Shown here piece after piece: positions 4,747-63,209 of a stretch of 64,000 nucleotides of DNA. The stretch is taken from NCBI GenBank assembly GCA_022264855.1, contig JABYQU010000074.1:49161-113160 (forward strand), given 5' to 3'. This stretch comes from Lenzites betulinus. Taxonomy: Eukaryota > Basidiomycota > Agaricomycetes > Polyporales > Polyporaceae. Within the stretch, counting starts at the first letter, position 1; each line of letters starts with the position of its first letter. The notes below the pieces were generated by a model. The model had not been told where the DNA came from. It saw only the letters and a list, made by a program, of their open reading frames with translations, and made no database searches. The position numbers and the translations under genes are program-made.

Positions 4747-4769
4747 ACCGGCTGGTTTCGTGATGTATC

Positions 4770-5320: not shown

Positions 5321-5325
5321 TCTCC

Positions 5326-43386: not shown

Positions 43387-44320
43387 TGTCAGTTACTGGA
43401 AGGTACGCATGCCCAAAGTTCACAGTGCAGTCGCACCTTAGACTCGACGCGGTATGCATCCATACCGAGAGCCTCTCCGCTGTCGTCCCTCATCGTAGGG
43501 GTCCTGGAGGACATTGGGGGAGGTCCACCGCGAGGCAAGTCGTGTCAATTCCAACGCAGATATAGTGTACAGAAAGATAATTTCACGTCGTGGAGGTGTC
43601 GTAGAGCGGCCTACCACGAAGGATAACAGAGGGACAGCCACGCCGCAGGTCACAGTGAGTAGTAGACGGAACAGGTTCGAGTGAGTGCGCGCTCGCGACT
43701 TCAACCATCCGTGGAACATTTCCTTTGTGGGCATGATGGCGCTTTGTCCTGCTTTGTCCACCTGATCATCACACGAGGGGCATTGGCCAATGTTACCCTC
43801 CGGAACGGGGTTGTGACGTGGATGGGAACTGGACTCCTGTCACGGCAGTCACTCATGTCATGTTCGGTTACCGAAACAGTCAGCGTGTTGATGTCATGTT
43901 CAGGTCGTGTTCTGGTCCTGAACTTGGCCTCCTGATTCAGGCCCAGAACCGTCTTTGAGCCACTCCCACAAAAGGATTCCTGTGACGTCCCTGTTCCTGT
44001 CATGAACTCGGCCGGAATTCATCAAAGCTGGTCAATAGCCTGTCTTCGGTCCCTAACCGCACCGGAACAGGCGACCTGATTCCTTGCCAGATACATCCCA
44101 CTAACATGGTCGGAATATGTAACATGTCCCCGGGTACCACTACGACTCCCGTCATGTCGGACCACCGCTCCGTTACCGCAACGGCGCGAGCACACCGCAA
44201 AATCTCGTGTCGCGCGGTCGCGCGCTCACGGCCCGCGTTTTGTCCGCCTCCGAGCTCTTTTTACTGAGGAGCTCGACACGGAGCTCTGTGCTTGAGCTTT
44301 GAGAATTGCGAGCGCGTGAG
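43387..44320. other. intergenic region with possible transposon flank
   Basis: A minus-strand frame at 43761-43438 has one hydrophobic segment (LFRLLLTVTCGVAVPLLSFVVG) but no other support. The sequence around 43800-44170 repeats motifs such as GGAAC(A/T)GG and TCATGTC(A/C). I annotate no gene here. Confidence 0.4.
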
Positions 44321-44329
44321 CTCCGAGTC

Positions 44330-44760
44330 GAGCATGCGAGCCAGATGAGCTCCCAGTTGCGCGCTCCCGGATGAGCTCCCAGCTGCGAGCTCCCGAGCCC
44401 GGATGAGCTCCCCGCGAGCCCCCAGCTGCGAGCTCCCGAGCCCGGATGAGCTCCCAGCTGCGAGCGCCCGAGCCCGGATGAGCTCCCCGCGAGCCCCCAG
44501 CTGCGAGCTCCCGAGCCCGGATGAGCTCCCAGCTGCGAGCGCCCGAGCCCGGATGAGCTCCGCGCGAGCTCCCAGTTGCGAGCTCCCGAGCTCGTGAGCT
44601 CCGCGCGAGCTCTCAGTTGCGAACTCCCGAGCTCGTGAGCTCCGCGCAAGCTCTCAGTTACGAGCTCCCGAGCTCGTGAACTCCGCGCGAGCTCGCAGCG
44701 AGCTCCCGAGCGCGTGAGCTCCGAGCGCGTGAGCCCCGAGCGCGTGCGCGCAGAGCACGT
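44330..44760. repeat. GAGCTC-rich minisatellite with 75-bp higher-order unit
   Basis: Two exact tandem copies of a 75-bp unit (44401-44475 and 44476-44550). Each consists of a longer and a shorter sub-unit sharing GATGAGCTCCC and AGCTGCGAG. To the right follow about four diverged units of about 40 bp built on GCTCGTGAGCTCCGCGCGAG. It is very rich in the hexamer GAGCTC. Minus-strand reading continues the transposase frame to a stop at 44860, just short of the array. Confidence 0.85.
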
Positions 44761-44859
44761 CTGAGCTCCCCACGGCCGCGAGCGAGCTCAGATGAGCTCC
44801 GCGCGAGTTCTGAGTCGAGCACAGGAGCGCGTGAGCTTTTAGTCGAGCACGCGGAGTAC

Positions 44860-47800
44860 CTACGAGCTCCCCGCGAGTGCGAGAGATCCGGAGCTCCTCC
44901 AAAGTTGCGAGCGCGAGAGGCTTGAATCGAGATCTTCTTGCGAGCACGCGGATTCAAAGCAAAGTTCAGCCATCTGAGATACATGCCGTGTTTCTACTGA
45001 AACCCCCGGATCCATTCTTAGCTCTAACGGAAAAAAGAGGTTGTCAGAGTCGTATGTCCACGAATGAGTGGACGGACGTACACGGTCCAAGGAGCGCACC
45101 ACAATGCAGCTCTGCCTAATTCCTTCTGGTATGTAGACGAAGGCAGCGAAATGAGCAATGATGTCGTCGCTGCGCACTATTACTCGTCGGGGGTGGAATC
45201 GGTTGTAGTACAGTTTTGTGTCGAGTAGAGGAAACCGCCGGTAAGGATCGCACTCCGCGTGGGCTGCCGTCAGAGGAACATACTCTTCGATGACGATGAA
45301 GGGTTGGACGACACGATGTTCTCCAGGTGCGACGCGAGCGTGTAGAAAGATTAGCGAGATCTGTCCTGCACGAATACGCGTGGGGTCGGTAGAGCAAAGG
45401 TCCTTGAAGCAAACGAAGGAGTTCCGCACATGGCTGCTGCGGCATCCGTAACTGACTCGGCCTACATCGATCTGTGTTAGCGTACGCATGTGGGGTGCGA
45501 GACGGGCACGCTGGTCGGAAAAGTCGGCGTGATAGGTCGTGAAGTCCTTGGGCCCGCATGTTACCCCGATGAGGCTCACGAAGTTGGCGTAGATATCGTT
45601 GTCCATGCGTGTGTCGCGCAGATTGGAGAAGATTTGTGCCCACTGTTCGTTGATCGCCTCTGTCGATGGCGACATCGTAGATCCGAAGATGTCGAGAACG
45701 CGAGACCCACGAGCGACGTCCTGGTAAGTTCTATCAAACGCCTCAACAACGGCGCGCATCTCCTCGGAGTCTGGCCACTCTGTTGATGACATCATCCATC
45801 GCAGTTCGGCGCCGGCGTAGAACAAGCGCATGAACGTCAGCGGGATCTCCGCTGTATGGTATATCGTTAGCATAGATGCCACACCAAGTTTAAGAAGCTC
45901 ATTACCGATGTGATTGTTTGTATTGAGGCGCTGTATCATGCCGTTGTACCGCTCGAACGGATAGCCCCACCATCCTCGTACTGGACCGAACAGAAGGAGG
46001 CAGGCGGTAAGGTGGAGGGAGAGATGGTGATTAGGAACTAGATTGTGGTCGAAGAGTTCGCGTAACGTGCGCAGATATTCAGCCATGTGATGGTCAAATA
46101 GCCTGGCGCGCTCGGGGTCCATGGATCGTCGAGTTGCGAGATCGACGGCGATGACAAGGTGGACGAAATTCTGAAGGATTTGACGGTCCCCGGCCGTCGA
46201 GGCTGAGGAAGACCACAGGCGTACAAGCGTGATCGTCATGCTGATGGTGCAAACCGTGCGCCAGTGGTCGGCCTTCAGCTTGCCATGGGCAGGGCTACCA
46301 AAGTTTGCGGGAGGCCGTTCGATCCACGACGGAAGGAAAGTTGTTGACATGTCGGCGCGCAAGGTTCCGACTACCTCAGGCGTGAGGACACGAAACTTTG
46401 ATATGTCGTGCTGGTTGCTGGCAAGATGGAAGTCACTCGTGGCTTTCGGAAGGACCGGCGGTATGACGAGTTGGTCGATTGGGTGTGTTTGAGCCTGAAA
46501 TTGAGATTGAAAGCGATTAGAACGAGAACTGCAAACGCTGCAGCCACTTACCCATTCCAAAAGAAGAGCTGCATATGCCTGTTTGGTTGCCTTCGAGGTG
46601 GGGGATATGCCGTTCGCTTGGGCGAGAGCGACGAGGTAACCCTTTCGTGGCTGCGTTACCACTGAAAGAGCGCCCTTCGCGAGTGCACCATTAGGAAGAA
46701 CTCCTTGACGAAGGGCGTCGACTAGACGGGAGAGCCATTCTGCTTGCTCCGTCGGTGTGTGCGGTGTCGTCTTGGATGATGTTGCTTTGTCCTTCACATC
46801 TATGCCCCAGACGTCCCGACAGTGGTGGCGAAGCTCTCCCAAGAAGAGATTGTGCATAGTATCGACGACTGCATAGCGAGTGGGATCCCAATAGGGTAGC
46901 CGGAGAAGCTCTGACCAGCGCAAACCATGCTCGTCAAAGATTGCGTTACGTTCGGTCTCGGTCTGAGCATCCCGCCACCTCGACGCTATTGCTAGATGTT
47001 CTTGCCAGGTGCGAGAGGGCCAGGGGCGAGATAGGTTGTTGATATCGCTCTTCTTCAGGAGACAGAACGAGCAGAAGTGCTTCGATCCATGACCAGCAAA
47101 GCCAGCTGTCTTTCTAAGCGCTGGAAGATCGCATATCAGAGGGATGATCACAGCCCGAACGAGGCGTCCGTTGGGGTGGAGCGCAGTACGGCTCATGTGT
47201 ACGCCAGAATGCCACAAGACTAAGAGTTCGTCTATGAGAGGGCGAAGGAAGTTGTTGAGCTCGTGAAGGGATGGTTCATTGGGGCCTGGTATAATTCCGA
47301 GTAGGGAGACGTATTCGGGAAGAAAACGCAGCTCGGGGGGGAGGTTGAGGCAGACGAGGTACATAGCACCCACTGAACGTGATTTCCCAGCTTGCTTGTT
47401 GCCACCGGGGTTGAACCAGTCGACGAAGAGGCCGAAGACGAGATGTACAGCGCCATTGGGCTGGATCGAGTACAGATTGCCATCAGGACCACGAAAGCGA
47501 CGTAAGGCTGGGGACTGTAGGATGTCGACACATGGGGAACCAGGGGTAGGAGTCGAGTTTGTCCAGGCGCTCTCCACGATCTGCTCCGCCGATTGACGCG
47601 TAAACAAGTTGGCGATCCAAGACAACAGGGGGCGGTAGGGAAAGGGGCATAGTGGAACAAACGTAGTCCTGGCTGTCTGCCTTTTTGACGTGGGCGCATG
47701 GACCACCTTCTGTGTCAAAGGCGCGTTACAGATCGGCTTGTCGGTTTCCTTGAACGTACAAAGTGGCGGGTAGGGTTGGTCTGGCGAGCGCGGGTCGGGG

Positions 47801-49300
47801 GGGTATGTTTGTGAACACGACGGACAGGTCGCATAGCGAATTGTTTCGGGCTCAACCTTGAGCCGGGAGAGCGCCGTCCGGATATCCCGAGGTATCGTAT
47901 CCAGCATGGACTGTTGCTCGGGGGTGAGGCTCGCGGATTGTGCACGTCGTCGACGGGCGTTACTGGACTGTCGGAGTACGGGGGAGGATGGTCGAGGGTT
48001 GGGGGAAGAGGTTGTGGAGGACTTATTGGAGGCGATGAAGGCGCCCGTGAGAACGACTCGTATCATGGCTAAAACGAGATTGGCAGAATCTGCGTTCATC
48101 CCAGAGATTGTGTGAAGTGCGCTAGTCACGAGCAGGGCTATGAGGATGCATGGCTGCAGTACGTAGCGTGAGACGAACAAATGTTCTAGTTTGGGTGAGC
48201 GAGTGGTATTGTACGGTGCATATGGTTACGTACCTGTCCGGTACACTCTGATTACGCCTGCGCCAGATTGGTCGGCAAAGCCATATAACCCGCTCAGAAG
48301 CTTATGACGCTCCCATGCAAAGTACTCCTGAGATTTCAGCGTGGCGAGCTCCTGCGTGACTTGTTCCACAAGCTTGCCGCGCCGACGATCTGCGTCCTTG
48401 TGACCAAGAAGGGGAAGTAGGCGTAAGGTGTGTCGTTTACTCTCGAGAGAGGAGCGGAGCGCCAGGAACTGTTGGTTGTCGGAGGCGGCCGTGGTGGGAA
48501 GGAGAGGGGCAGGAGCGTCATCGAGAGAAGACGGTGAGCATTGAAACACGAGTCGTGGACTCTGCGGCAAGAGACGAAGCTCGTGACAGAGAGTTGATTC
48601 TAGGAGTGAAAGCTCCGTGATGCGTTGCACAACCAAATCAACCTGGAGTGCACGTGAACATAGAGAGCGTCGCGACTGGAAGTTTCTTACCTCTTGGTCT
48701 ACAGTATTGGAGGAGCATGGCGAGTTTGCGTGCAACGGCGTGGGTGGAATCGGACCATCAGGAAACAAAGAAGGGGGAGCCGGTGACGGTGACGGTGACG
48801 GTGACGGTGACTGAAGCGACGAAAGCGGAGGAGATCGTGGCGGAGGCGAAGGCGAGGGGGGCGGAGAGGGAGGTGGAGGCAAACAAGGTGGAGGCGAGGG
48901 AGTGGGGGTAGAGCTGAGCGATTGCAGACCTCCGATGTTTGTGGTCGACTGCTGCTGTTAAGATAAAGTCAGTCTATGTGTTATCTTTGTGGAAATGTGA
49001 AGGACGTACGGCGCGCGGACGACGAACGCCAGGTGGTACACCTCGTGGCACATGCTCATCCTCGAGATCCCTCAGGCGTGTAGGTAATGTATCATCTGTG
49101 CGTTTGTCGGCGAGTGCAGCGGCGAACGTCGAGTAGTAAAGGTGATCTTCTTTATCTGCTTGCAACGCGTCGTTGGCGGCATGTTCCTTCCACCTCCTGA
49201 GATCCACCATGCGGCCCTCCTTGAGAACGCCATTGTCATCGTGAGTGAGATTCTTGCAGACTGAGCACAGGCACAGCTTGTGCTTCTTGCTTGGGGGCAT
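44860..49300 (-). CDS. Tnp2-type transposase (Plavaka/CACTA)
   Basis: At least three exons. Exon 1 (from ATG 49300, MPPSKKHKLCLCSVC) has a small CxCxxC cluster and a basic stretch, exon 2 (about 48880-48235) is Pro/Ser-rich then helical, and exon 3 (48180-44860) encodes the core. Core motifs are CPSCSQTYPP with CNAPLT, the family signature VFGLFVDWFNPGGNKQAGKSRSVGAMYLVCLNLPP, then HSGVHMSR, KHFCSFCLLKKSDI, LPYWDPTRYAVVDTMHNLFLGELRHHCRDVWGID, and the C-terminal PEGIRQSCIVVRSLDRV. Full-length core and no internal stop suggest potential activity. The microsatellite GGTGAC repeated about five times (48781-48812) encodes Ser-Pro repeats. The exact exon 2/3 junction is unresolved. Confidence 0.8.
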
Positions 49301-50366: not shown

Positions 50367-50596
50367 CGCAGTCAGACGCGGTCAACGGGGAGGTTGTGGA
50401 CAGGAGGGAGGGAGTGAACAAGGTGTGGTCAAACGCGCCCATTATACCTGATTCAGCTATCAAGCGGACGCAGGACAAAGAAGCAAAAGACCTCGAGGCT
50501 TGGGCGCAGCGCATCTTAGATCTCAGATCTCAGATTTGACATCACTGGCTTCGATGAATGTGTGGCTGTGCACAGGCAAGGATCGCCCGGGAACGC
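50367..50596. other. spacer between coiled-coil gene and retroelement
   Basis: Presumed promoter side of the coiled-coil gene. It ends with ACGC (50593-50596), the left copy of the target-site duplication of the 12.6-kb retroelement. Confidence 0.5.
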
Positions 50597-51232
50597 TGAT
50601 GCACTGAGACCTGCTATAACAGCAGGGATAGAGGGCGCGGCCGAGAGCCTAGGGGGCGAGGCCGGACGTAGTGCGGGGAGGGAAGGATAATGCCTGCGAG
50701 TAAGGGCCGGTTTCCCTTCACTGGGCTTCCACGAAGCGTCGCCGGTCGCGGTCGTCCCGCTATCGCAGAGGGAAGGTGGGTACGCGGTCCGTCGGTTCTA
50801 TCGCAACCGGTCGCAGTGCCAGCGAACTGGTAAGGAGGCGTGGACGAGGCAGTCGCGGTGGTCAGGGGAAGCCGCGATCGCAGTCGCAAGTTCGCGTCGC
50901 AGCTCGCGGTCGCAGTTCGCAGTTCGCGGTCGCAGTCGCAGTCGCAGTCGGTACCAGGGCCGTTCTATGAGGTCTGAGGGGTGGGGATGGCTTCCGTTCT
51001 GAAAACTACGGAGCACGGAATATATACATGGACGATACCGGGTCGCTCTCCCAAAGTCCGAGATCAGCCGGTCGCACGGCCAGACTCCTCCTGCTGCGGC
51101 TACGGTCCTCAGGCGCCCGCGACTCAGCCGGGCGTGCGACGGCTCGCGACGGCTTGCGACGGCTGCGCCGAAGCCTGCTACGCCCGTACCTAACTGTACC
51201 GCTCCGGCCTCAGCGGGCCGCGGGTCGCATCA
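50597..51232 (-). repeat. 3' LTR of the large retroelement
   Basis: 636 bp, TGATGC...GCATCA. It contains an array of TCGCA repeats (about 50870-50950), a stem-loop CCTGCT-ATAAC-AGCAGG near its left end, and a TATATA (about 51018-51030) suitable as the minus-strand promoter about 200 bp inside U3. Confidence 0.93.
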
Positions 51233-51243
51233 TCTCCCCCTCA
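51233..51243 (-). promoter_or_regulatory. 3' polypurine tract
   Basis: On the minus strand TGAGGGGGAGA directly abuts the LTR start TGATGC. A purine tract at exactly this place primes plus-strand DNA synthesis in LTR elements and fixes the element's orientation as minus. Confidence 0.85.
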
Positions 51244-51373
51244 CTGAGATCCCGACCGCCCTCGGTCGGCCATCGATGCGATCGCGCGATAGACCCTGCG
51301 ATAAAGGTCACCATCTGCCCACGGAGGCCCACCTATCCTTTTCGCTCTCTCTCCTATGCGCGGTATCGCCACC

Positions 51374-52035
51374 ATGGATAACTTGGTCGAAATCGAGGCC
51401 GCATCGGCTCGCCTGCGACAGACTACTATCTCCCTGGCCCGTGCACAGGTCGAAGAGCAGGCGGCCATTATGGAGGAGATGGTCGAGACCGGCTATAGCG
51501 TCGCAGATTGGGAGGACGCCATCGACCGCTTCCTGTACCGCACGGTACGTCCTATCGGCCAGTCTCCTGCTCTGCGAGCGATGCGATACTGAGCTTGCCT
51601 TCCTAGGAGTCGTACTTCTTGATTTCCCTCGGCGATACCGTGATGACGCCCCTCCTTACTCGCGCCCGAGTGGCCTTGCGCGCCCTGGAACGACACAGCG
51701 AGTACCGCGGCGCGGTCGCAGATTTCGACCGACGACTCTTTACCATGTCGCGCGACCTGGAAGGTGTCTTCTTAGCTGCCGCCCGCCAGCGCCTGGTCCT
51801 TCTACGCTCTCGCTCCTCTGCGATCCACAACGTTCTTGCGATCACGGGCGCCGACCGGTCCGTGGACATGGCCCAGTCGCAGGATATCGCGGGCGCGATC
51901 GCCCGTCTTCAGCGCGACGTCGCGGCCGCCCAAGACGCCTATCGTGGTGGAGAGCGCACGGTACTGGTCGACCGCCCTGAGGAGGCTGGGTGGGTCGCAG
52001 CCATGGAGGAGGTTGCGACTAATCGTTCGGGTTAG
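51374..52035 (+). CDS. retroelement accessory protein A, antisense to pol, 199 aa
   Basis: Two exons, 51374-51544 and 51607-52035, with intron GTACGT...CCTAG. I chose ATG 51374 because it has a perfect GCCACCATGG context; an in-frame ATG lies at 51356. The product is predicted to be almost entirely helical (VEIEAASARLRQTTISLARAQVEEQAAIMEEMVETG; LLTRARVALRALERHSEYRGAVADFDRRLFTMSRDLEG; ARLQRDVAAAQDAYRGGE), with no cysteines, signal peptide or known catalytic motif. It begins about 140 bp inside the left LTR and runs towards pol on the opposite strand. Transcription may start from antisense activity of the LTR. No family is recognised. Confidence 0.72.
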
Positions 52036-52215
52036 GAAGGAGGGAAGACACCTGAAGGCAGGAGACGAATTGCGATGCGTGTAGTCTAGCCCATCGATGG
52101 ATTAGATGTCTTGCGATCGGTTCCCGATTGCGACCTCGTGTGGCCCGCTCCTTCCTATAAGTCTGCGACCTGCGATGCGACCAGCCTGGTATCGCACGCC
52201 CCAGTACTCCGCGCC
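52036..52215 (+). promoter_or_regulatory. inter-accessory region with TATA box for accessory gene B
   Basis: CTATAAG at 52155-52161 lies about 55 bases before the ATG of gene B. TGCGA/TCGCA motifs are especially dense here (six in 52081-52200), so this is a good candidate for a motif-bearing regulatory region. Confidence 0.45.
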
Positions 52216-52819
52216 ATGGATCCCCTTCCTGATCTTGTCCGCGCTATAGACTCTCTCTGCGGCGAACTTGTCGACCCCGCCCTCTACCAGTTAGAGTCGC
52301 AGGTTGCGACCATCGAGGGCGCCCTTTCTTCCGTGGACCCGCCTGATATCCGCCACTGGCACGTCCTTGCGACGCGTGTCCTGGTCGCCATAGTGCGTAT
52401 GCTAGCTGCTTCCCAGCGCAGTCATTGACCCGTAGTCGCAGGAAGCCTGTATTGCGATGGGCTGCGACCAAGCTCTTGTGGATGCCGCGACCGCCCGCGC
52501 CCTCTCGGTCCTGCGATCGCAGACTGCGTACCCCGACCTCGGCCCCTGGTTCCTGCGAGAGAGACTTCGGTACACAGCCGCTCAAGAATGCCTTACTCTC
52601 GAAGTGACTCGCGCCCAGCTACGTTTATTGGTGTCGCGGGCCGACGCGGCTCGCGGAGTGGCCAGTCGCGCGGGCGGGGCCGGGCATACATTGTCTTCTG
52701 CTCTCTCCAGCATCCGAGGGGCTTCGGCGCGCGCCTTGCGGGGAACTGAGCACGCGCTTACCGAATTAGGGGAGATGGAGGGCGTCGGCCTCGGTGCCGC
52801 GGGGGCGGGACTGGACTAG
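52216..52819 (+). CDS. retroelement accessory protein B, antisense to pol, 184 aa
   Basis: Two exons, 52216-52392 and 52442-52819, with intron GTGCGT...GTCGCAG. It begins MDPLPDLVRAIDSLCGELVDPALYQLESQVATIEGALSS and is helical with Ala-, Arg- and Leu-rich heptads (DAATARALSVLRSQTAYPD; TLEVTRAQLRLLVSRADAARGVASRAG), ending in Gly/Ala-rich sequence. No known domain. It has the same strand, exon number and general helical character as protein A, so they may be distant paralogues or partners, but I could not align them convincingly. Confidence 0.7.
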
Positions 52820-53252
52820 TCAGGGGAGGCGGGCCGCCCGAAACGGAGGAGTAGGGAAGCCCGGCGCGGCCGCCGTTTGGCGTCTATGGTGTATTTCTGG
52901 CGCGCCAATCCTAGCTCTGGCATTTGCGACCCGTTGCGATCGGGGTACGATCTGGTGGGAACGTGTCGCGCGCTCCGCTGCGCTCTGAATGTACCCGCGT
53001 AGCGCCTGTTCGACTGGGTCGCGGCGCGTCAGCGCTAAGTCTCCGTGCGCTGGAAATTTTGCTTCCGCGATGCTTCGGCGCTTGACGTGCCGCGTGCTTG
53101 CGACTGTTAGCGCTTCCCGACCCTGCGCTGCTGCCGTCCGCGGGAGGGGTACTGCGACGGCTAAGTACCCGTCGCATCTGTCGCGGGACTTCGTGCTTTC
53201 TCCCTCCCTTTCCTCCTCTCCTCCTTCTCTTCTGCTTCTCTCTGCTCTCCCC
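52820..53252. other. spacer between accessory genes B and C
   Basis: 430 bp, presumably the promoter and 5' UTR of gene C. A pyrimidine-rich stretch (53201-53252, TCTCCCTCCCTTTCC type) precedes the ATG, as is common upstream of fungal start sites. Confidence 0.4.
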
Positions 53253-55422
53253 ATGGCTGGCTCGTCCACCTCCGCGTCCCGTAAAGGCAAGAACCGCGCC
53301 GACCCCGCACTCATGCGCGCTGACACGATTACGAACCTGGAGGACCTCTTCAGGGCGGCCCCCGACGGCGTGGCCACTGCGGCCGACTATGCGGACTTTG
53401 CGACGTCCGCACTGGTTTGGATGGTATGCCCCCCCCCTTTCTGCGACTGCGACCAAGTTCCCCTGACCTCCTTCCTAGCGGCGCTTGGAGCGCTACGGGG
53501 GTGACGCCGAGCTGATCGCCGTATGGGGCGATCGCCTGTTCGAGGCCGTCGACGCGGGGCTCGACGGATACATGGGTGAGGACAGTCCGTCCGAGGACCC
53601 CATGTATGTTGCCGCCCGCGAGCGAGCCGGCGCTGCTTTGGTCGCGCGACGCGCCGCAGAGGCCGAGGCCCGCGAGGCCGAGGAACAACGGGAGGTCGCG
53701 GCTCGCCGCAAGATTTGGGCCGACGCACGTGCCGCCGCCGCCGACTCCGACGAGGAGGACATCCCTCTCGCCGTCGCAGCCCCAGCCGCCGCCGCAGCCC
53801 CAAGGACCCGCGCCATGATGCGCGCCTCCAATGCCCCTCCACTCGCGACCAGGCCCCCAGCTGCGACCAAAGTGGCGCCCGCGACCAAAGCAGCACCTGC
53901 GACGAAGACTGCGCCTGCGACCAAGGCGACACCTGCGACGAAGGCAGCGCCAGCGACCAAAGCGGCCGTCACCTTGAAGGTCACCCCGGTCGCGAAGTCC
54001 GTGCCCCTGCCCGCTCCGGTGACGCCCACGAAGCCCGAGGTCGCAGCTGCGACCTCGTCCACGACTTCGCCCGCTTCCCCGGCTGGCCCGTCGCGCAAAC
54101 GCGCCCGCGACGACGAGGACCTCGTCCTGGTCACGAAGCGACCACGGACGACTGAGGGCTTCGAGCCCGCGACCTATCCGCCGGGCGCGCGCGTGCCCTC
54201 TGGCAAGGAGGCGGTAAGTTCCCGTCCCTCATCCATCTGCGATCGCGCTAACCCCCTTTCTCCACAGTGCGTGCAGTGCCAGACACTTGTGCGCCCCCGA
54301 TGCGTCCTGCGTCGCGGGGTGCGCAAGTGCGACCGCTGCGTGTACTCCCAAAAGGGGTGCTACGCGCCGGGGCACATCGACTACGGGGAGTGGTACGACA
54401 GCAACGGGTTCGACCGCGGTATGTCGCAAGCTGCCCGGCCTTCGAGTTTCTTGCGATACTGACTTCTTTGCTTTGATCTAGCGAACTCGCCTGTCGGACA
54501 CATCTGGCGCGCGGTCCTCACCGCGAAAGGTCGTCCCTCCGACGTTCCCGAATGCTGCCGGCTGCCTGAGGGTGTCACGGAGGAAGAGGCGACCGCACAG
54601 GAGCTCAACGCCCTCCTGGCCGCCGCTGCTGCGGAGCGCGCGACGGCCGCCCCTGCGATCGCGCCCGCACCTGCGACCACCGCGACGCCTGCGACCACCG
54701 CGACGCCTGCGACCGCCGCAGCTCCTGCGACCGCCGCAGCTCCTGCGACCGTCGCGACGCCTGCACCCAAGGCCACGACCGCGACCTTCCTCCTTCGGCC
54801 TTTCCCTCCGCGCGTCGCCACGCCTCCGCCCGCCCCTCGTGCCCCGACACCTCCGTCTGCGATCGCGCCTGCCCGCGAAGAGGACATCACGCTGGCCCCC
54901 TCAAGCGCCGCACAAGACGCGGAGCGCCTCCCGTCGGTTTTGGTGAGCCAACTCTTCCCTCCGGTAGAGTACACCCGACTGATCGTGACCTACCCCGGCC
55001 AGGAGGACCTTCTTCGCATCCAGGCCCGGCCGACGCGCACTTATGGGGCCTCGCGTACCATCGCGGGCGGGCCGAGCCCTTCGACTTCCCGGTCGCGCGC
55101 CCCGGACTCCGCCGCCACCCACTCTGCGATCGCACCGGTCGCGGGCCCTTCCCGTCTCGCGCCCCGCGCTCGCCCGGCTGCGACGCAGACCGCCTCTCTC
55201 CTGCCGGCTGAGCCACCGCGCGACGAGGAGGGGGACGACTTGGAAAACGTCCCCGGGATGACTGAAGACCGCCGTCTTCTCATCCTCGCCTATCGCCAGG
55301 AGCGCGCCTTCCTACGGGCCCGCATATCTGCGCTGACCCATCAGGTCGCCGACTTGCAGGAGCGCGAGAGGCTATTGCTCGGCCTTGAGTGGAGCGCGGC
55401 GGACTTGGAGCCGGAGGACTAG
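53253..55422 (+). CDS. retroelement accessory protein C with six-cysteine zinc-cluster-like motif, 665 aa
   Basis: Four exons, 53253-53423, 53479-54213, 54268-54418 and 54482-55422, sum to 1998 nt in frame. Introns are GTATGC...CCTAG, GTAAGT...CCACAG and GTATGT...ATCTAG. The order is a helical N-terminus (about 1-130), acidic DSDEEDIPL, a run of about six Pro-Ala-Thr-Lys-Ala repeats, basic SRKRARDDEDLVLVTKRPR (likely nuclear signal), then cysteines spaced C-x2-C-x7-C-x8-C-x2-C-x6-C at the exon 3 start. This resembles but does not exactly match the fungal Zn2Cys6 DNA-binding cluster. Further low-complexity Ala/Pro/Thr sequence follows, then a C-terminal coiled coil (RRLLILAYRQERAFLRARISALTHQVADLQERERLLLGLE). 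It is most simply read as a DNA-binding, dimerising nuclear protein; this is inference. Confidence 0.78.
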
Positions 55423-55812
55423 ATTTGCGATCGCGGCCCTTAGGTAGTTTTCTTGGGACTCTTATGTACCTAGTCGCGCGCCGCCAATATCGCAGGTAGG
55501 GGAGTACCTCGGACTTGTATATACCGTCTTGTCCATACCCTTGCGCTGCCGTCGCATGCGACCGTGGTCTCCATCGCGGGGGTAGGCACGCAGAACTTGT
55601 GGGTCGTCTGCCTTCTTGATGTACTTGTAGCACGCGATCTCGAGCTGTCGCAGTGGTCGTCGCAGGTGGGCCATAATACACGTCACTTCTCCCTTGTCCG
55701 TTCTCGTCCTGAAAGAGTGTGAATGGAGAGGTCGCAAGTGCGACCGCTCTGAGAAACATAAATAGGGGTATAGAGTCGCCCTTGCGACGGTGGTACGCTT
55801 GCGACCGCGACC
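55423..55812. other. convergent spacer between accessory gene C and pol
   Basis: 390 bp between two stop codons that face each other; it must hold the 3' ends of both transcription units. No separate gene is seen. Confidence 0.5.
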
Positions 55813-58800
55813 TCAGTCTGATTCGTCGCCTTCGCTGCCCCCTGGCCCTGCGAATACTGGCGGCTCGTCTAAGACTTCTGGTTCCGGGTCTTCTATACCG
55901 TCGTCCTCGGATGCGACTAGCTCGTGTAGCCTTTTTCCTGAGATGTCTGCGAACCCTTCAGGGAGGGGTATAGCCTTGCGGGCTAGGTACGGGATGACTC
56001 GGAAGGCTGCGACCGGTCGGTGTAGCACTGAGCCGTCCAGTTCGCAGAGCACGTATGCGCCTCCGCGATTGCGGGACACTACCACTAACGGACCTGTGTA
56101 CCGCGGTCGCATCTTGCGATTCAGTGATTTCTCGATCTGCGTGTGCCGCATGAGGACCAGGGCCCCGGGCTTGAAGTCGAAGTCGCGTATGGTCGCAGCG
56201 TGATCGCGCTCGAACTTCTGGGCGGCCTCCACTCTCGCTCGGTAGACCCTTGAGTGTAGTGTAGCTAGCTGCCCTTGCCGCTTTTGGAGTTCGATCGCAC
56301 GTCGCGCGATGAGGTCTTCGGTTGACAGGAGTTTTTCTGGCGCGGGCATGAGGTAGGTCGCCTCTGCGATATCCATAGGGAGGATGGGGTGGCACCCTGT
56401 GACCGCGAAGTAGGGCGAACAGCCCATACGTTTGCGGACCGTGATGCGATCCGCCCAGAATACGTAGGGTGCGACCTGCGACCACCTGGCCTGGTCGCCG
56501 TCCGCTGCCTTGAATAGCAGCTGTCGCAGGTCGAAGTGCGATCTCTCGACGATCCCGTTGGCCTTGGAGTTGTACGCGCTGATACGGATATGGGGAAGGC
56601 CATATTTGCGCTGTAGTCTTCCGGCCGCACTGACGAAGGCCGACCCATTGTCGGTCACGATCTCCGAGGGTGCGCCCCATCGGCAGTACAAGTCTTGGAG
56701 GAGGAAGTCGGTGATGACCTTGTCCGTTTCTACCCGTAGCATGCGCCATTCCGTCCATGCCGATACGGAGCATCGCGCTGCGACGATGTTGCGGAACCCG
56801 CCGGACGCCGGCATCTTCATGGTGTCCACGTACCATCGTACAAAGAGCGCGCCTGGTCGCGCGACTGTGGGTGGGATCAGGATCTTGCGATGCGATCGCA
56901 CCTGACACAGGTGGCACGTCTTGATGTACCAGGACACGTCCTCTCGTAGGGAGGGCCACCAAAAGCGTTCTGCGACCATCTGGAGCGTCGCGTAGTTGCC
57001 TCGGTGTCCTAGCTCGTCGTGCGCTTTCCGTAGTATGCTGAAGCGTCGCTCGGGTCGCACTACTATCTTGTGTGCGCCTTGAGCGTCCTTCTTCCACAAC
57101 CGTTGGTCGTCGCAGAAGAATCCTTGTGCGTACTTGATCAGGGACGCGTACTGGCTATCCGTGAGGCCCAGTGGTCGCTGGAGCGTTCGAAGCCAGTCCG
57201 CAACTAGTTGCAGCCGCGCGTCGGCTTTGGTCGAGTGCTCGTTAGACGGTAGCTCGGTCTCTTGGTCTGTCGCGGCTGCCTCTGCTTCTGTGTCGCTGCT
57301 CGCGCGATCCTCCCCCTCACTGAAATTTCGACCGTCCTCGGTCGCTTCGGATAACTCCAACATTGCGATCGCAGGCGTCTTGCGTCGCAGACGCGATGGG
57401 GGAGCTAGGATGTGATGCATGAAGCCGTGGACCTTGTCTATCCAGTCCTCGAATTCGTCTGGGTCTTCCGCAGGGTCATCATCGGGTTGTGGGTTGCGAC
57501 GCGACAGGCCGTCTGGGCCATGCGACGTGCCCGGCACATGTACCAGGTGGAAGTGGAAGGTGAGGATACCCAAGATCCAGCGGTTGATGCTTGCGCTGGG
57601 CGCGAGGTCAGGATTCTGTAGCATTCCGCGGATATATCGCGCGTCGACCTCGACTATGAGGTTGCGAACTCCTACTAGGTAGATCTTGGTCGCCTGTAGT
57701 GCGCGGAACAGACCATAGAGCTCTAGTTTCGGTTGCGAGAAGCGCGCTTCACGCTCGTTGAGGGTGATGGACCCGAAGCGGCTATAATAGCGCTTGCGAA
57801 GGTCGTCTGGGTCGCATTGGCAGAGGTGGTAGCCTACTGCGATGTAGGATGTGTCGACTGCGAGTACCACTGGCGCTCCATTGTCGTAGTCGATCGCCCG
57901 TAGCGCGGGGGAGGCCAGGAGCGCCTCTCGCAAATCGTCCATTGCTGCGATCTGCGCTTCTCCGAATTCGAATGGAGCGTCTTTCCTTGTGAGTGCGACC
58001 AGCGCGTGCGCCCGTCGCGCGAAGTTGCGTATGAAGATCCTTGCGACGCCTACGGTCCCCAAGAAGGCGCGTACCTCCGAGAGGTCCTTGCATGTGCGCC
58101 ACTTCTTGATTGCTGCGACGCGCGATTCGTCTGGCTTGCGACCTTCGGGGGTGCACCGATGCCCTACCACCAGTATCTCGCGGGCGCAGAGGATTGACTT
58201 CTTCCCAGAGAACGTCCCGCCTGCGTACTTCATGCGCTGGACGATGCGATTGTTGTTCTGGAAGTGTTCCCAAACAAAACGACGGATCCCTGGGTTCTCT
58301 GGGATGGTCTCGTAGGTCCCTCCCTCGTCGCGATAGTCTGACGCCGGCCCTTTACAGGGTACATCGTCGATGTAGGGGACCGTGATCTCAGGTATTTCCG
58401 GTCGCAGGATGTAGGTGACGTCGTCGTGGAAAATTGGTACGGAATTCGACCATCCCATAGGGAGGGTACAGTGTCGCAGCGCCCCGTAGGGCGTCTGGAA
58501 GGTTGTGAGGTCGCGCGATGACTCTGCGATCAACCTCTCGTCGTACCCTACGTAGAGATCGAAGATCGCGCCGCATGCGCGACCTCCGAACTGTTCGGCT
58601 AGGTAGTCGGGCGTAGGTGTTACTCCAGAGTGTTGGATGGTAACCTTGTTGAGTGGCTCTAGACTGTGTACAATTCGCAGCGACTTCGCGTCCTTTTTGA
58701 GGACGCAGAACCATCGCGACCGATAGGAGGAGTTGGATGGCTCGTAGACGCCGGCTGCGATCTTCTTCTTGAGCATGTCGCAGACCTCGCGGTAGAGGCC

Positions 58801-59237
58801 TGGGGGTATAGGGATATTGCGCTCCACCCAGGGTGTGTGTGGTAGCACGGGAAACTCGACGGGGGGAAGAATTCTGGTTTGAAGCAGCCGCGCTCTGTGT
58901 CGTCCCACGCGAACGCCTCGTTGTGTTGTCGCATGAAGTCGTGTAGCAGTTTGCGCTCTTCTGCCCATAGGAAGTCGCCTCCATGCGCCTCGTCCATGGC
59001 TTGCTTGCGCTCCTCGGTGTAGCGCCCAGTCGGTACGAACGGGGGCGGTCGCGGATTCAGTCTAGGCATCCCCGCTAAAGGGTCGCCAGTGATGTTGCGC
59101 TCTATGCGGAACTGGCCCGGTACGGTGCCTAGCACCGGTCGCACCTTCTGCGCCACGGGCTTGTACTTCTTTTTGGACTGTATGAAGATCCCGGCTGGGG
59201 ATGCCTGCGTCGCGGTTTGCGACCGAGGTGCGACCAC
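55813..59237 (-). pseudogene. pol: reverse transcriptase, RNase H, integrase (frame-broken)
   Basis: The long frame 58968-55813 (1051 codons) carries RT (VEFPVLPHTPWVERNIPIPPGLYREVCDMLKKKIAAGVYEPSNSSYRSRWFCVLKKD; FDLYVGYDERLIA; TPYGALRHCTLPMGWSN; VPYIDDVPCKG at the YxDD box), RNase H (LAVDTSYIAVGYHLCQ) and the integrase zinc region (HDELGHRGNYATLQ ... CHLCQVRSH). The integrase core follows (RWYVDTMKMP, TDNGSAFVS, NGIVERSHFDLRQLL). There is no chromodomain. The preceding frame 59237-58660 holds KYKPVAQKVRPVLGTVPGQFRIERNITGDPL. The shift between them falls at a run of six C (minus strand, about 58861-58866), where seven would restore continuity. The RT box reads YIDD. Mid-pol, 57311-57344 doubles as a polypurine-tract copy. 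Confidence 0.85.
57311..57344 (-). promoter_or_regulatory. candidate central polypurine tract
   Basis: 30 of 34 bases are identical to the 3' PPT region 51235-51268, and the four differences are all transitions. The purine core (minus strand TCAGTGAGGGGGA) is unchanged. It lies between RNase H and integrase coding sequences, about 6.7 kb from one end and 5.8 kb from the other. Confidence 0.65.
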
Positions 59238-59615
59238 AAGGAACCGGCGTCGGTTTTGTACGCGAATGCGAACGGCCTTTGCTGGCGCCCAGAGGCTAGG
59301 GGGGTATCGGGGACCGCAGGTTGCGCCGCGGTCGCAGAGGCTTTGCCTGGCCCGCGGGCGGTCGCAGGCTGGGCCCTCAGGGGAGTCGCAGGAGAGAAGA
59401 AAGACGAGAAATCACGGGTCGCGGACGGGATACTGGGTTCGCTTTGTGGTTCTTTTGATAATAAGTGGGCTTCCATAAGGCCCGCGAGACGGTCGCACGC
59501 AGATAGGTAGATAGCAGGGATAGAGAGAGGAACGTCCGGTAACTGGGTATATGCGCAGATCTGCGGTATGCCGAACTCTTCGGTAATGACCACCGCGATC
59601 GCATCGCCGTCGCAA

Positions 59616-60235
59616 CTAGTCAGATCCTCTAGTCGCGGGCTTGGGGGCTGGTTGGGCCCGAAAGCGAGCGCGACCGCGGGTTACGGTCGGGATAGTCGCG
59701 ATCTGTCCTGTGTTCGGACACTTGATCGTGATCGTCTGGTCCTCGTTCTCGAAGTTCTTGACGACGCTCTTGGTAAGGACGTCGAACGGTCGCCCTAGTA
59801 GGAGGTCGTAGGCCGCGTTCCGTATCACATGTACTTGGAGGTACAGTACGATCTCTGCGACCGCGAAGGGGACGTTCCGCACAAGCCCCAGTGACTGGTC
59901 AACCTCTCCGTTCGCAGACTGCATATTGAGGCGAATGGTAGGGTCGTACGAGAGTCCTAGCGCGTGGCAGACGTGCTCGGACATCGCAATGATCATACAT
60001 CCCGGGTCGACGATAGCCTCGACATACTCTTTCGAGTCTACCAGCCCCACGATGGAGCGCAGGGCGTGCGACTCCTTTGCGACCGTAAGGGAAGCCTTGT
60101 CCGGCCCCGGCGCCGTCTCGCGCAGGTATACTTCGTAAGGGTCCGGCAGTATGAAGCCTCCAGGTTCGAGCGGGTCGCCGCTGCATGATAGCTGCGTCGC
60201 GAACTCGTCGATGACTTCGTCTACGTCTGCAATGC
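59616..60235 (-). pseudogene. retropepsin-like protease region of the large element
   Basis: The frame runs IADVDEVIDEFATQLSCSGDPLEPGGFILPDPYEVYLRETAPGPDKASLTVAKESHALRSIVGLVDSKEYVEAIVDPGCMIIAMSE and on to AAYDLLLGRPFDVLTKSVVKNFENEDQTITI. The DPG in EAIVDPGCM stands where aspartyl proteases have D-S/T-G; in many Agaricomycete Gypsy elements this is DPG or DSG, so it is not necessarily defective. The conserved pre-protease sequence (TKIAEEIFARTMKTPVITLSTEELLSVAPEISARF) lies upstream in a different frame, joined by a -1 shift near 60235. Confidence 0.75.
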
Positions 60236-60860
60236 GACCGTACGAGTCGCAGGGGGAACTCTCTTTGGCGTGACCGCCTCCCGGAAACGCGCGCTGATCT
60301 CGGGCGCGACCGATAGCAGCTCCTCGGTGGACAGGGTGATGACCGGTGTTTTCATCGTGCGTGCAAAGATTTCCTCTGCGATCTTGGTCTGATGTACTGG
60401 GATCTGGTTCCTGTACGCGGGCTCTCCTGGCTTCGGTTTCGGCGGGGGTGCCCCGAAGTTGCGTGTGGTCGGTGGCGCGTAAGTCGCATCGCGCGACTTT
60501 GCGAACGGGTGCTCGGGTACCCCTCCAGTGTTCGTGGCCTGCCTCGCGGAGGCGTGCGACGTTATGGGCTGAGCGCTCTCGCGCTCTTGCGACCTGTCGC
60601 GACTGGGCGCCGTCCTAAACGTAGTGTCCTGTGTCATTCCGCCGCGTCCCGGCTGGCTCGCTGGATAGCTCGACAGTCCCGTGTTTGCGTCGCGCGACAT
60701 TGCGACCGACGTTCGCGAACTTGGGCCGTTGCTCGGTGGTGGTACGCGCGGGCTCGTCTGAACAGGAGGGGGGGTAGCGGTCGCGGATCGCGCGATCCGC
60801 TTGGGGGCGGAGTCCCCGGTCGTGGCCGTTGGGTAGGTCGCCGATAGGAAGGTACCTCTA
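60221..60860 (-). pseudogene. linker between gag and protease (pre-protease domain)
   Basis: A separate minus-strand frame encoding a Ser/Pro/Thr-rich linker followed by YRNQIPVHQTKIAEEIFARTMKTPVITLSTEELLSVAPEISARFREAV, which in related elements directly precedes the protease. It is offset by -1 from gag (transition near 60850) and by -1 from the protease. These shifts may be one-base deletions or, for the first, programmed frameshifting; no obvious slippery heptamer was seen at the transition. Confidence 0.65.
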
Positions 60861-62487
60861 CTCCGTCGAAGCGTTCTTTGGTCCGTCGCAGGGCGTAAAG
60901 CTCGTACTCCAGCTGTGCGATCCGGTCCTCCGTCGCAAGCGCAAAGCCACTCGCCGTGTACGGGTCCTCTGCGATCTCGAACACCATCTGCGACGCCGGC
61001 CGCGACGCGAGCTGATTGGGATTGCGACGATGCCACTCGTAGACTCGATCGCGCATAGTGAGGCCATTGAAGCCATGCATGAACCTGGGCACATACATCC
61101 CGTTGGGTAGACAGACCCGTCCTTCGTGGTTCCGGATACACCGCCCTGCGTCGACATCTTCCTGGACAAAGGGGCAATTCCGTAGCATGCAGCCGGCGTT
61201 CCCGCAATAGTGGCAGAAGCCGTCGTTCTGGTCCTGCGTCGCGTAGCTTCCCGATAAGCGATTCTGTTGCGACTGTGTGGCGGGACCAGGGGCGTTTCCT
61301 CGCTCGTTCACGGACTGTGCGAGCAATCGCAACAGAGGGGCGAGGTCTTCCACCTTTACTGACGGGTTCGCGACATTTGCGGTCGCGTTGGCGCTAGATG
61401 GGAGGGGGGCGGTCGCGAGCGTTCCGTGGAGGACAAACTTCGCGGCCTCGTACACTTTGTTTAGCTCGTAAGGGTCGTCCGGATAGTGGTCCGGGTCTTT
61501 GAGCTGCAGCCTCTGCGACACTTGGTCCCATAGGGGAGCGCGGATTCCTTTGACGAAGAGACGCGACTGCTCGGACGTCGACAGTCGCGCTTGCGATATG
61601 AGGTAGGTGGTCATCGCGAAGAAGTCGCGATAGTAGCTGGATAGCTCGGTGATGCTAGTGATTGCGACGGCCGCTCGTCTTGCGACGAGTGCCTCGACAT
61701 CTGCGACCGAATATTTGCGCGACTCTTCCGCGCCAGGGTATAGGTCTGTAACCGCTTTGACGAACTCGCGATACGCGACTCCAGCTCCATAGGCCGGGAG
61801 GCTCTCGCAGAGCTCGGATACGTCGATCGGTAGGTACCGCACTACCCACTGCTTGCGCTGTCGGTCCTCCTCTACTCCGCTGCGCTCGAAGAGCGCTTCG
61901 ATATCTTGAAAGAAGCGTCGCAGCGTACGCGGCTGTTCCGGAGTGAAGGTGGGCGCGGTCGAGTGACCTCGCGCTGGCATGGCCGGTCGCAACTGCGGCG
62001 CTGGTGGTGGCGCTTCCTGTGGTTCTGGCATAACGTCCACGAATGGGTTCTCGAAGAGGTCCTCTAAGGGGGACAGGGGGGAATGAAAGGCTGGCGCTTG
62101 GTACTCAGTCGGTTCGCGGCCTTCCGAGTCGCGTGGTGTGGGACTAGCGGGTGAGAGGCTGGTCGGGGAGAGGTTTGCGATGGCTAGGGCCGCGTCGCGG
62201 AACCAGTCGCAGGCTGCGGGGTCGCGTCGCAGAAGTTCGCAGCCGCGGTCGAGGAGAACAAAGACCGGTTCTATGATCGCAGAGAGCCTCTCGTCGTCTA
62301 GGTGGTGGCTGAACTGGGTGATGAGCAGCTTGAATCTTGCGACGAGTAGCTCGGAACCGAGATCGGGGTCCTTGGTCGCTGCTCTTGTCTTGCGCTTCGG
62401 CGCCTGTTGTGTGCGTTGTCCCGGCTCAATGGCTGCTGCGACGACTGCCGTTTGGCCCGGGGAAGGAGGAATGCGGACTACTGCTTG
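60634..62487 (-). CDS. Gag with one zinc knuckle, start codon unclear
   Basis: The frame is open from 62487, just after TAG 62490-62488, to 60634. The capsid-like region shows RRFFQDIEALFERSGVEEDRQRKQWVVRYLPID, FVKAVTDLYPGAEESRKYSVADVEALV and SEQSRLFVKGIRAPLWDQVSQRL. The knuckle is CHYCGNAGCMLRNCP (about 61215-61170). Residues upstream of 62040 look genuinely coding (LVARFKLLITQFSHHLDDERLSAIIEPVFVLLDRGCELLRRDP), but no in-frame ATG occurs before about 62031. The real start may have been lost, be non-AUG, or lie in an unrecognised upstream exon. The C-terminal end beyond about 60850 is probably out of frame. Confidence 0.72.
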   Translation of the reverse strand, partial: QAVVRIPPSPGQTAVVAAAIEPGQRTQQAPKRKTRAATKDPDLGSELLVARFKLLITQFSHHLDDERLSAIIEPVFVLLDRGCELLRRDPAACDWFRDAALAIANLSPTSLSPASPTPRDSEGREPTEYQAPAFHSPLSPLEDLFENPFVDVMPEPQEAPPPAPQLRPAMPARGHSTAPTFTPEQPRTLRRFFQDIEALFERSGVEEDRQRKQWVVRYLPIDVSELCESLPAYGAGVAYREFVKAVTDLYPGAEESRKYSVADVEALVARRAAVAITSITELSSYYRDFFAMTTYLISQARLSTSEQSRLFVKGIRAPLWDQVSQRLQLKDPDHYPDDPYELNKVYEAAKFVLHGTLATAPLPSSANATANVANPSVKVEDLAPLLRLLAQSVNERGNAPGPATQSQQNRLSGSYATQDQNDGFCHYCGNAGCMLRNCPFVQEDVDAGRCIRNHEGRVCLPNGMYVPRFMHGFNGLTMRDRVYEWHRRNPNQLASRPASQMVFEIAEDPYTASGFALATEDRIAQLEYELYALRRTKERFDGVEVPSYRRPTQRPRPGTPPPSGSRDPRPLPPLLFRRARAYHHRATAQVRERRSQCRATQTRDCRAIQRASRDAAE

Positions 62488-62495
62488 CTATATCC

Positions 62496-62513
62496 CCCTC
62501 GCGGTGGGCTCCA
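62496..62513 (-). promoter_or_regulatory. tRNA primer-binding site
   Basis: Three bases after the 5' LTR ends (minus strand GCATCA, TTT) comes TGGAGCCCACCGCGAGGG, which begins with TGG as required to pair with a tRNA 3' CCA end. The primer tRNA would end GGTGGGCTCCA; I did not assign its identity. Confidence 0.7.
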
Positions 62514-62516
62514 AAA

Positions 62517-63151
62517 TGATGCACTGAACCTGCTATAACAGCAGGGATAGAGGGCGCGGCCGAGAGCCTAGGGGCGAGGCCGGACGTAGTGCGGGGAGGG
62601 AAGGATAATGCCTGCGAGTAAGGGCCGGTTTCCCTTCACTGGGCTTCCACGAAGCGTCGCCGGTCGCGGTCGTCCCGCTATCGCAGAGGGAAGGTGGGTA
62701 CGCGGTCCGTCGGTTCTATCGCAACCGGTCGCAGTGCCAGCGAACTGGTAAGGAGGCGTGGACGAGGCAGTCGCGGTGGTCAGGGGAAGCCGCGATCGCA
62801 GTCGCAAGTTCGCGTCGCAGCTCGCGGTCGCAGTTCGCAGTTCGCGGTCGCAGTCGCAGTCGCAGTCGGTACCAGGGCCGTTCTATGAGATCTGAGGGGT
62901 GGGGATGGCTTCCGTTCTGAAAACTACGGAGCACGGAATATATACATGGACGATACCGGGTCGCTCTCCCAAAGTCCGAGATCAGCCGGTCGCACGGCCA
63001 GACTCCTCCTGCTGCGGACTACGGTCCTCAGGCGCCCGCGACTCAGCCGGGCGTGCGACGGCTCGCGACGGCTTGCGACGGCTGCGCCGAAGCCTGCTAC
63101 GCCCGTACCTAACTGTACCGCTCCGGCCTCAGCGGGCCGCGGGTCGCATCA
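62517..63151 (-). repeat. 5' LTR of the large retroelement
   Basis: 635 bp. It differs from the 3' LTR by about four changes (for example ACTGAACCT for ACTGAGACCT, one G fewer in a run of five, TGAGATCTG for TGAGGTCTG, GCGGACTACG for GCGGCTACG). The high identity implies a recent insertion. Confidence 0.93.
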
Positions 63152-63209
63152 ACGCGTTGCCAGCTCATCCTCCTCCCACCATGATCCTGGTCGTGTTTCG
63201 ACGCATCGT

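Follow-up and report, generated by a model that had tools for sequence, protein, structure and literature searches.

HBZ of human T-cell leukaemia virus type 1 (HTLV-1) is an antisense regulator gene near the 3' long terminal repeat (LTR) of a retrovirus, and its product is a bZIP protein. Antisense genes of HTLV are also mentioned in excerpts of PMC11963269, and the excerpts of the sources on the plant Ty3/Gypsy elements Retand, Grande and RIRE2 (PMC11963269, PMC7264820) offer a regulatory role as a guess for the Retand antisense proteins. Among fungi, brtn of Boty, an LTR element of Botrytis cinerea, is an antisense gene described by Zhao et al. 2011, as cited in excerpts of PMC7264820 and PMC8365987. 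A precedent of another kind is VANC21, which acts on the Arabidopsis transposon VANDAL21 through a short motif present at high density; according to excerpts of PMC5735166, related VANC proteins have different motifs, and VANC proteins have repeat-bearing variable regions. Here we describe a Ty3/Gypsy element of the basidiomycete Lenzites betulinus that occupies positions 50597-63151, on the minus strand, of a 64,000-nucleotide stretch of genomic DNA (the window, to which all coordinates refer). Between its pol gene and 3' LTR lie three plus-strand genes with five introns, and a short CpG-containing word is repeated over the entire element. The explanation that we consider best, to which we give about an even chance, is that the product of gene 3 is a DNA-binding protein which recognises its own element and maintains the activity of that family, in the manner of VANC.

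The likeness to VANC and VANDAL (Arabidopsis MULE, or Mutator-like, DNA transposons; excerpts of PMC5735166 and PMC10398659) lies in a fast-evolving, transposon-encoded protein with conserved and repeat-bearing variable parts, in dense short family-specific words that differ between related families, and in host methylation as the thing opposed, which for the fungal element we infer. The two differ in that the element is a fungal LTR retrotransposon and not a DNA transposon, and in that DUF1985 and DUF287 belong to VANC, whereas no Pfam family was found in gene 3. A Pfam scan of gene 1, gene 3 and the second part of gene 2 gave no match to DUF1985 or DUF287, which would point to VANC descent, and none to TRP28 (PF04195), the mark of the Retand lineage. 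Compared with Retand, Grande and RIRE2, the element has three antisense genes with five introns, and its saturation with words is a feature unmentioned for plant elements in the excerpts of PMC11963269 and PMC7264820. Boty, compared by description only, is likewise a fungal LTR element with an additional antisense gene, but the excerpts name one gene, and the host is an ascomycete. HBZ is likened by position, as an antisense gene near a 3' LTR, being itself a retroviral bZIP gene.

An earlier interpretation made from the window's letters, here called the sequence-only reading, had known of no described fungal element with three spliced antisense genes. This needs correction in that a single antisense gene in an LTR element of a fungus, brtn of Boty, had already been described (excerpts cited above). 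Among the matches listed in the open-licence literature (titles and starts of abstracts, with subscription papers mostly outside), no LTR element of a fungus was described as having multiple spliced antisense genes or family-specific dispersed words, and a word search of excerpts of LTR Retrotransposons in Fungi (PMC3248453) found neither "antisense" nor "intron".

Antisense genes and their copies

Gene 1 (199 amino acids, start GCCACCATGG) spans 51374..52035 on the plus strand, with exons at 51374-51544 and 51607-52035; gene 2 (184 amino acids) spans 52216..52819, with exons at 52216-52392 and 52442-52819; and gene 3 (665 amino acids) spans 53253..55422, with exons at 53253-53423, 53479-54213, 54268-54418 and 54482-55422. 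The introns are 62, 49, 55, 54 and 63 nt long and all have GT..AG ends, and each model contains a single, terminal stop, so that the three genes and five introns of the sequence-only reading were reproduced to the residue. Taken alone, the weakest intron is that of gene 2 (49 nt, with the branch sequence TTGAC, not CTGAC); a candidate intron occupies the same place in a related family (GTGCGTG..CTGAC..CCGCAG in L037, introduced below). By eye, the product of gene 3 has a basic stretch, Pro/Ala repeats and a C-terminal heptad-like helix. The gene also contains 18-nt tandem repeats (53821..53994, plus strand, with a second array at 54631-54786) whose unit carries TGCGACC, and which may be a way to multiply words. 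Pfam assigned no family to gene 3 or to the second part of gene 2 and gave only a sub-threshold Coat_F match for gene 1, and protein-database searches, one with residues 290-400 of gene 3 and one with gene 1, returned nothing at E<=0.001. The AlphaFold model of gene 1 exon 2 is mostly helical, with a mean confidence (pLDDT) of 66. Genes 1 and 2 are probably partners of gene 3.

The window is part of contig C81 in a genome of 37.4 Mb and 108 contigs, and the 4.2-kb antisense block has 20 matches in that genome. These were grouped as 15 copies including the window's, so that 14 further copies, referred to by C numbers, hold parts of the block. Copy C60 was not counted as independent, since its right flank is common to the window copy and the two are perhaps the same insertion: between the right edge of the element and the end of the contig, all 849 bp agree in C81 and C60, whereas their left flanks have no similarity, and this may be an assembly or haplotype matter.

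Genes 1 and 3 are under strong purifying selection, with ratios of nonsynonymous to synonymous substitution rates (dN/dS) of mostly 0.04-0.24 over the pairs tested. For gene 1, the window copy differs from C72 by dN 0.009 and dS 0.144 (dN/dS 0.06) and from C37 by dN 0.016 and dS 0.169, and the near-identical pair C12/C51b has a ratio of 0.34. For gene 3, the corresponding values are dN 0.024 and dS 0.170 against C72 (dN/dS 0.14), and dN 0.033 and dS 0.264 over 663 codons against C87p (dN/dS 0.13). Support is weaker for gene 2, for which dN/dS against the window copy is 0.10-0.35 in most pairs, 0.69 in one pair three substitutions apart, and undefined in two pairs (dS 0). Some copies have decayed: gene 1 of C31 is interrupted by a stop codon, C51a has many one-base deletions, and each of C98, C12, C20, C37, C51b, C61 and C87p contains some frame-breaking indel. 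These aside, exon indels measure 3, 6, 12, 18, 21, 24, 27 or 108 nt; indels in the gene 3 introns measure 8, 3, 2 and 1 nt, against exon indels that are mostly multiples of three. The antisense frames are real genes and not accidental. The sequence-only reading depended on other copies carrying the genes with conserved frames, and they do: at the sequence level the frames are conserved, even if they are disrupted in several of the copies.

Dispersed words and the six-cysteine exon

The word has the consensus YTGCGAYC. Its core, TGCGA or TCGCA, occurs 194 times across 50597..63151 in both orientations (83 TGCGA and 111 TCGCA on the genomic-RNA strand), or 15.5/kb, whereas the remainder of the window has 2.8/kb. 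Simulated sequences of order 1, 2 and 3 (100 runs each) had means of 37, 54 and 113. All parts of the element are involved (LTR 25, antisense block 14, pol 15 and gag 13 words per kb), and the density is highest outside the coding frames, with 30/kb in the introns of genes 1 and 3 (7 TGCGA words in 234 nt), 39/kb in the spacer between genes 1 and 2, and 26/kb between gene 3 and pol. Relative to the host level, TGCGAC is enriched 12.6-fold and TGCGAT 8.2-fold, with the single-base neighbours TGTGAC and TGCAAC at 0.2-fold. Only two word spacings, 18 and 36 nt, are in excess, and these correspond to the periodicity of the coding repeats.

Within each gene, synonymous codons were shuffled 500 times, which keeps the protein and the codon usage and does not keep the dinucleotides across codons. 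The observed words exceed the shuffle mean in pol (47 vs 13.7), gag (18 vs 6.4), gene 1 (8 vs 2.4) and gene 3 (20 vs 6.9), and none of the 500 shuffles reached the observed count in any of these four. Three sources of the words were rejected: a side effect of the amino acids, by the synonymous shuffles; general host composition, by the density of the element relative to the rest of the window, by the simulations and by other families; and an RNA signal, by the mixed orientation.

The lone third exon of gene 3 (54268..54418, plus strand) is the proposed DNA-binding domain. It encodes six cysteines in the arrangement CX2CX7CX8CX2CX6C, followed by DYGEWYDSNGF, and is directly preceded by an intron with the ends GTAAGT..CCACAG. 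Some of the more divergent pol matches were traced into their neighbourhood in the same genome (the L-numbered stretches), and a cysteine exon antisense to pol was found in L037, L041, L038, L039 and L044. Between these related families pol is 66-76% identical, and the cysteine exon is 36-41% identical to that of the window. The six cysteines and the segment Y..WY...G are invariant in seven of seven aligned sequences from three families, and the loop after the second cysteine ranges from 6 to 11 residues; the decayed copy C51a, which is outside this alignment, is frame-broken in the exon. Within the window's own family, the exon differs between the window and four copies of a second gene 3 allele (allele B, below) by dN 0.026 and dS 0.44-0.69. 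In L038 and L039 the cysteine spacing is X2, X6, X8, X2, X6, which we take to be the canonical Zn2Cys6 form.

We propose, as a hypothesis, that the exon is zinc-cluster-like. It resembles the Zn2Cys6 (Gal4-type, PF00172) domain of fungal regulators in its six cysteines and near-canonical spacing, and differs in scoring below the Pfam threshold, in the longer first loop of the window and L037 types, and in the invariant Y..WY...G segment after the cysteines. A genome search with PF00172 gave 29 matches, the element exons not among them.

The other antisense genes also have relatives. L037 (30% identity) and L039 (16%) each have a homologue of gene 1 in which a candidate intron sits at the equivalent position, and L037 has a gene 2 homologue as well as a single candidate intron before its cysteine exon (GTAAGTC..CTAAC..TCGCAG). 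In the sequence-only reading, introns were supposed to outlast the RNA stage thanks to their antisense placement, and this idea agrees with the comparisons, because candidate homologous introns persist across families. L045, L046 and L047 contain gene 1, but the stretches fetched for them showed no cysteine exon. L039 is bounded by LTRs (1378-6856, the first 300 nt of the repeats being identical) and has kept the antisense genes and a short pol end, the rest of gag-pol being lost; it is a non-autonomous copy that retains the accessory genes. L043 and L044 are interrupted by other insertions and of limited use.

Three cysteine types pair with three words. TGCGAY reaches 13/kb in the window's family and at most 2.2/kb in the others; CGCGCGC reaches 11-30/kb in the L038/L039 type and at most 3.1/kb in the others; and CGCGGAA/TCCGCGA/CGCGAA reaches 7-8.4/kb in the L037 type and at most 3.6/kb in the others. 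None of the family words occurs in L040, a stretch of a distant Ty3 family (pol ~41% identical) that yielded no gene 3, and words are near the host level in L043 (pol ~50%), in which no cysteine exon was found. In homologous pol genes these words exceed the shuffle, with 102 occurrences of its own word in L038 against a mean of 47.0, and 14 of CGCGAA in each of L037 and L041 against 6.6 and 5.7. Where families share a residue the word usually does not persist, being retained about as often as other sequence windows or less often, and the words have therefore been rewritten since the families split.

The pairing was checked by prediction on five further copies picked by cysteine type, of which three fit: CGCGC reached 31 and 42/kb in L071 and L072 (CGCGC type), and CGCGGA 7.2/kb in L068 (L037 type), all as predicted, and the word was not present in L069 and L070 (L037 type). 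We read the latter two as old-looking, CpG-decayed copies. Several arginine codons of L069 have turned into W, Q or H codons, as CpG decay would produce, and this suggests methylation-linked mutation in the host, in whose genome DNA-methylase matches are present.

Gene 3 exists as two alleles. Allele A is found in the window copy, C60, C72, C98, C37, C31 (partly covered) and C87p, and allele B in C12, C20, C26, C51a, C51b and C61 (the last from exon 1 only); gene 3 lies outside the coverage of C18 and C20b. C20 and C26 match the window at 98-100% identity over genes 1 and 2, but in gene 3 the identity is 67% for exon 1, 75% for exon 2, 89% for the cysteine exon and 71-77% for the introns. In the first part of gene 3 the alleles differ by dS ~1 and dN ~0.22. 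Judged from these sequences, the alleles must be old, and must have been exchanged between elements as a cassette because the backbones are nearly identical; the route was presumably template switching. A comparison of word subtypes gave no clear difference between A and B, TGCGAC being slightly fewer in B.

The words appear to be less prone to change. When 20 LTR copies are set against the LTR of the window, the CpG within words is changed in 19 of 317 cases (17 to TG, CA or TA) and the CpG outside words in 240 of 1302 (160 to TG, CA or TA), a roughly threefold difference. In the reverse view, the CpG of a copy is now TG, CA or TA in the window in 0 of 342 cases within words and 36 of 1064 outside. 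The LTR copies share ancestry, and so a per-site comparison was added, which gave a Mann-Whitney p of 0.005 for 16 word sites against 66 outside. In the gene 3 region the window has 27 words and C12 has 26, of which only 15 coincide, so there is word turnover between the alleles at constant density. Word retention is 0.50-0.62 over four B copies against 0.35-0.41 for other CG 5-mers, and 0.83 against 0.76 in C72. The lower CpG change fits either selection for the words or protection from methylation.

Borders, sense genes and surroundings of the element

The two LTRs are almost identical and have the ends TGATGC...GCATCA (minus strand; 3' LTR at 50597..51232, 636 bp; 5' LTR at 62517..63151, 635 bp). 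A 4-bp target-site duplication, ACGC, stands at 50593..50596 on the left and 63152-63155 on the right. The polypurine tract (GTGAGGGGGAGA on the minus strand) adjoins the 3' LTR at 51233..51256, and a putative primer-binding-site region (TTTGGAGCCCACC...) follows the 5' LTR at 62491..62516, also on the minus strand. A TATATA box at 51021-51026, inside the 3' LTR, might serve both strands and is a possible antisense promoter ~350 bp before gene 1.

The sense genes are likewise on the minus strand. Pol (55813..58968) comprises RNase H, integrase (H2C2 and rve) and reverse transcriptase (RT; YIDD box by eye); the aspartyl protease lies at 59616..60050; and gag (60634..62040), for which a Pfam scan gave no match, has zinc-knuckle-like cysteines by eye. 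The order is that of Ty3/Gypsy elements, with the protease upstream, then RT_RNaseH, then H2C2 and rve. The rve match is under its cut-off (28.5 vs 32.6 bits), and PF00078 itself was not called in the window copy's pol. This pol is frame-disrupted in its 5' part, and its match to other copies begins only near residue 31; in another genome copy, pol is a 1289-aa open frame without an internal stop. Together, the LTRs, the ACGC on both flanks and the minus-strand gag, protease and pol bear out the borders and orientation given by the sequence-only reading. A protein-database search with pol gave 2062 matches among 7988 scored candidates, and the matches listed include a Mycena chlorophos relative with 64% identity; scans of viral contigs and genome contigs confirmed no pol relative.

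Elsewhere in the window, in the region 44200-48180, a 1106-aa frame at 44860-48180 (minus strand) resembles by eye a DNA-transposon transposase. The array beside it looks like subterminal repeats, and GAGCTC occurs 31 times between 44 and 45 kb.

Explanations and significance

In the mechanism that we favour, the antisense genes between pol and the 3' LTR are an accessory module of this Ty3/Gypsy lineage of a basidiomycete. We infer that these genes are expressed and spliced, and that the gene 3 product binds the words and counteracts silencing. Antisense transcription, from an own promoter or from the 3' LTR, would leave the introns untouched when genomic RNA is spliced. The gene 3 product would be nuclear and its six-cysteine exon would read a short CpG-containing word, which the element would have written into its LTRs, introns, spacers and synonymous positions. 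Bound densely along the element, the protein would hold off host silencing by CpG methylation and chromatin, most likely permitting transcription of the family as VANC does for VANDAL21. Sister families would have diverged in both cysteine exon and word, each protein then serving mainly its own family. The element would need one recogniser able to distinguish its own DNA from that of the host. Gene 3 is the best candidate, because its product looks nuclear (basic stretch, by eye), one of its exons may bind DNA, and families with different words have different versions of it; a covering, anti-silencing role is favoured because the word density over the whole length exceeds what a promoter regulator would need. 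The sequence-only reading had suggested that the antisense genes regulate, silence-proof or mobilise the element; the dispersed family words and the six-cysteine exon would narrow this to sequence-specific self-recognition. More tentatively, at somewhat below an even chance, we propose the larger picture in which a fungal Ty3/Gypsy lineage independently evolved VANC-like self-recognition, with a spliced, antisense-encoded six-cysteine protein that diversifies rapidly, two more antisense genes, a family CpG word placed in every part of the element down to synonymous codons so as to resist host silencing, families that split as protein and word changed together, and protein alleles that were exchanged between otherwise almost identical elements.

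Several observations weigh against VANC-like self-recognition. Word specificity is not absolute: TGCGAC/T is above the shuffle mean in the pol of L037 and L041 (8 and 9 vs 3.6 and 3.7), as is CGCGAA in that of L038 (10 vs 3.8). Only three word/protein pairs are independent, the copies within a type being related, and L071 and L072 share one cysteine peptide. L045, L046 and L047 keep the CGCGC word with no cysteine exon found in the stretches fetched, and in C98 word retention (0.64) is below that of other CG 5-mers (0.70). For the cysteine exon, the PF00172 (Zn_clus) gathering score was not reached (best E=1, in two of the seven members), a PDB profile search found no credible relative (one match at E=0.19), and the AlphaFold model has a pLDDT of 51. 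Finally, in the excerpts on VANC the words form mainly non-coding tandem arrays, whereas the CpG-containing words of the element also fill coding DNA.

The same sequence evidence would also suit a gene 3 product that is a DNA-binding transcriptional regulator, either an activator or an HBZ-like repressor of copy number, with the words as multiplied operator sites. The words are densest in the LTR, spacers and introns, and a regulatory role is the published guess for the Retand antisense proteins. Promoter sites would suffice for regulation, yet the 194 words extend over 12.5 kb including the codons of gag and pol, and the lower CpG change within words fits methylation protection, though also selection on sites. 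We regard this explanation as unlikely.

Alternatively, the words might serve another step on the double-stranded DNA or RNA of the element, such as packaging, control of integration or recombination, or signals bound by Gag, the antisense genes being unrelated. Words are present in every part of the element, the reader could be Gag or integrase, the three stretches with a word and no cysteine exon found would fit, and the link between gene 3 and word is drawn from sequence comparison. On the other side, the mixed orientation speaks against an RNA signal, and pol is largely conserved between families whose words differ, whereas the cysteine exon is far more divergent. We consider this quite improbable.

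A functionless by-product of mutation (methylation-linked decay, biased gene conversion or slippage) is very improbable in our judgement. All three words contain CpG, the two CpG-decayed-looking copies lack words, and slippage makes the 18-nt word-bearing repeats. Mutation in one host would still have to produce three different words in homologous genes, deplete the single-base neighbours of TGCGAC while enriching TGCGAC itself, and put words at partly different sites of the two gene 3 alleles without altering their density, and the CpG of the words changes less than other CpG. We find it scarcely credible that the antisense frames are open merely by chance in GC-rich DNA, or that they are functionless captured sequence. 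In favour of this, chance frames grow longer at high GC, frames of 193-292 codons are also present on the opposite, minus strand of the block, and several copies are frame-broken. The copy comparison, with its dN/dS well below 1, third-position excess and mostly in-frame exon indels, contradicts it, and other families have homologous genes with candidate introns.

If VANC-like self-recognition is the true explanation, sequence-specific anti-silencing by transposons would not be confined to plant DNA transposons and would have arisen convergently in fungal LTR retrotransposons. The three natural protein/word pairs in the genome of L. betulinus would then offer a direct test of protein-DNA co-evolution.

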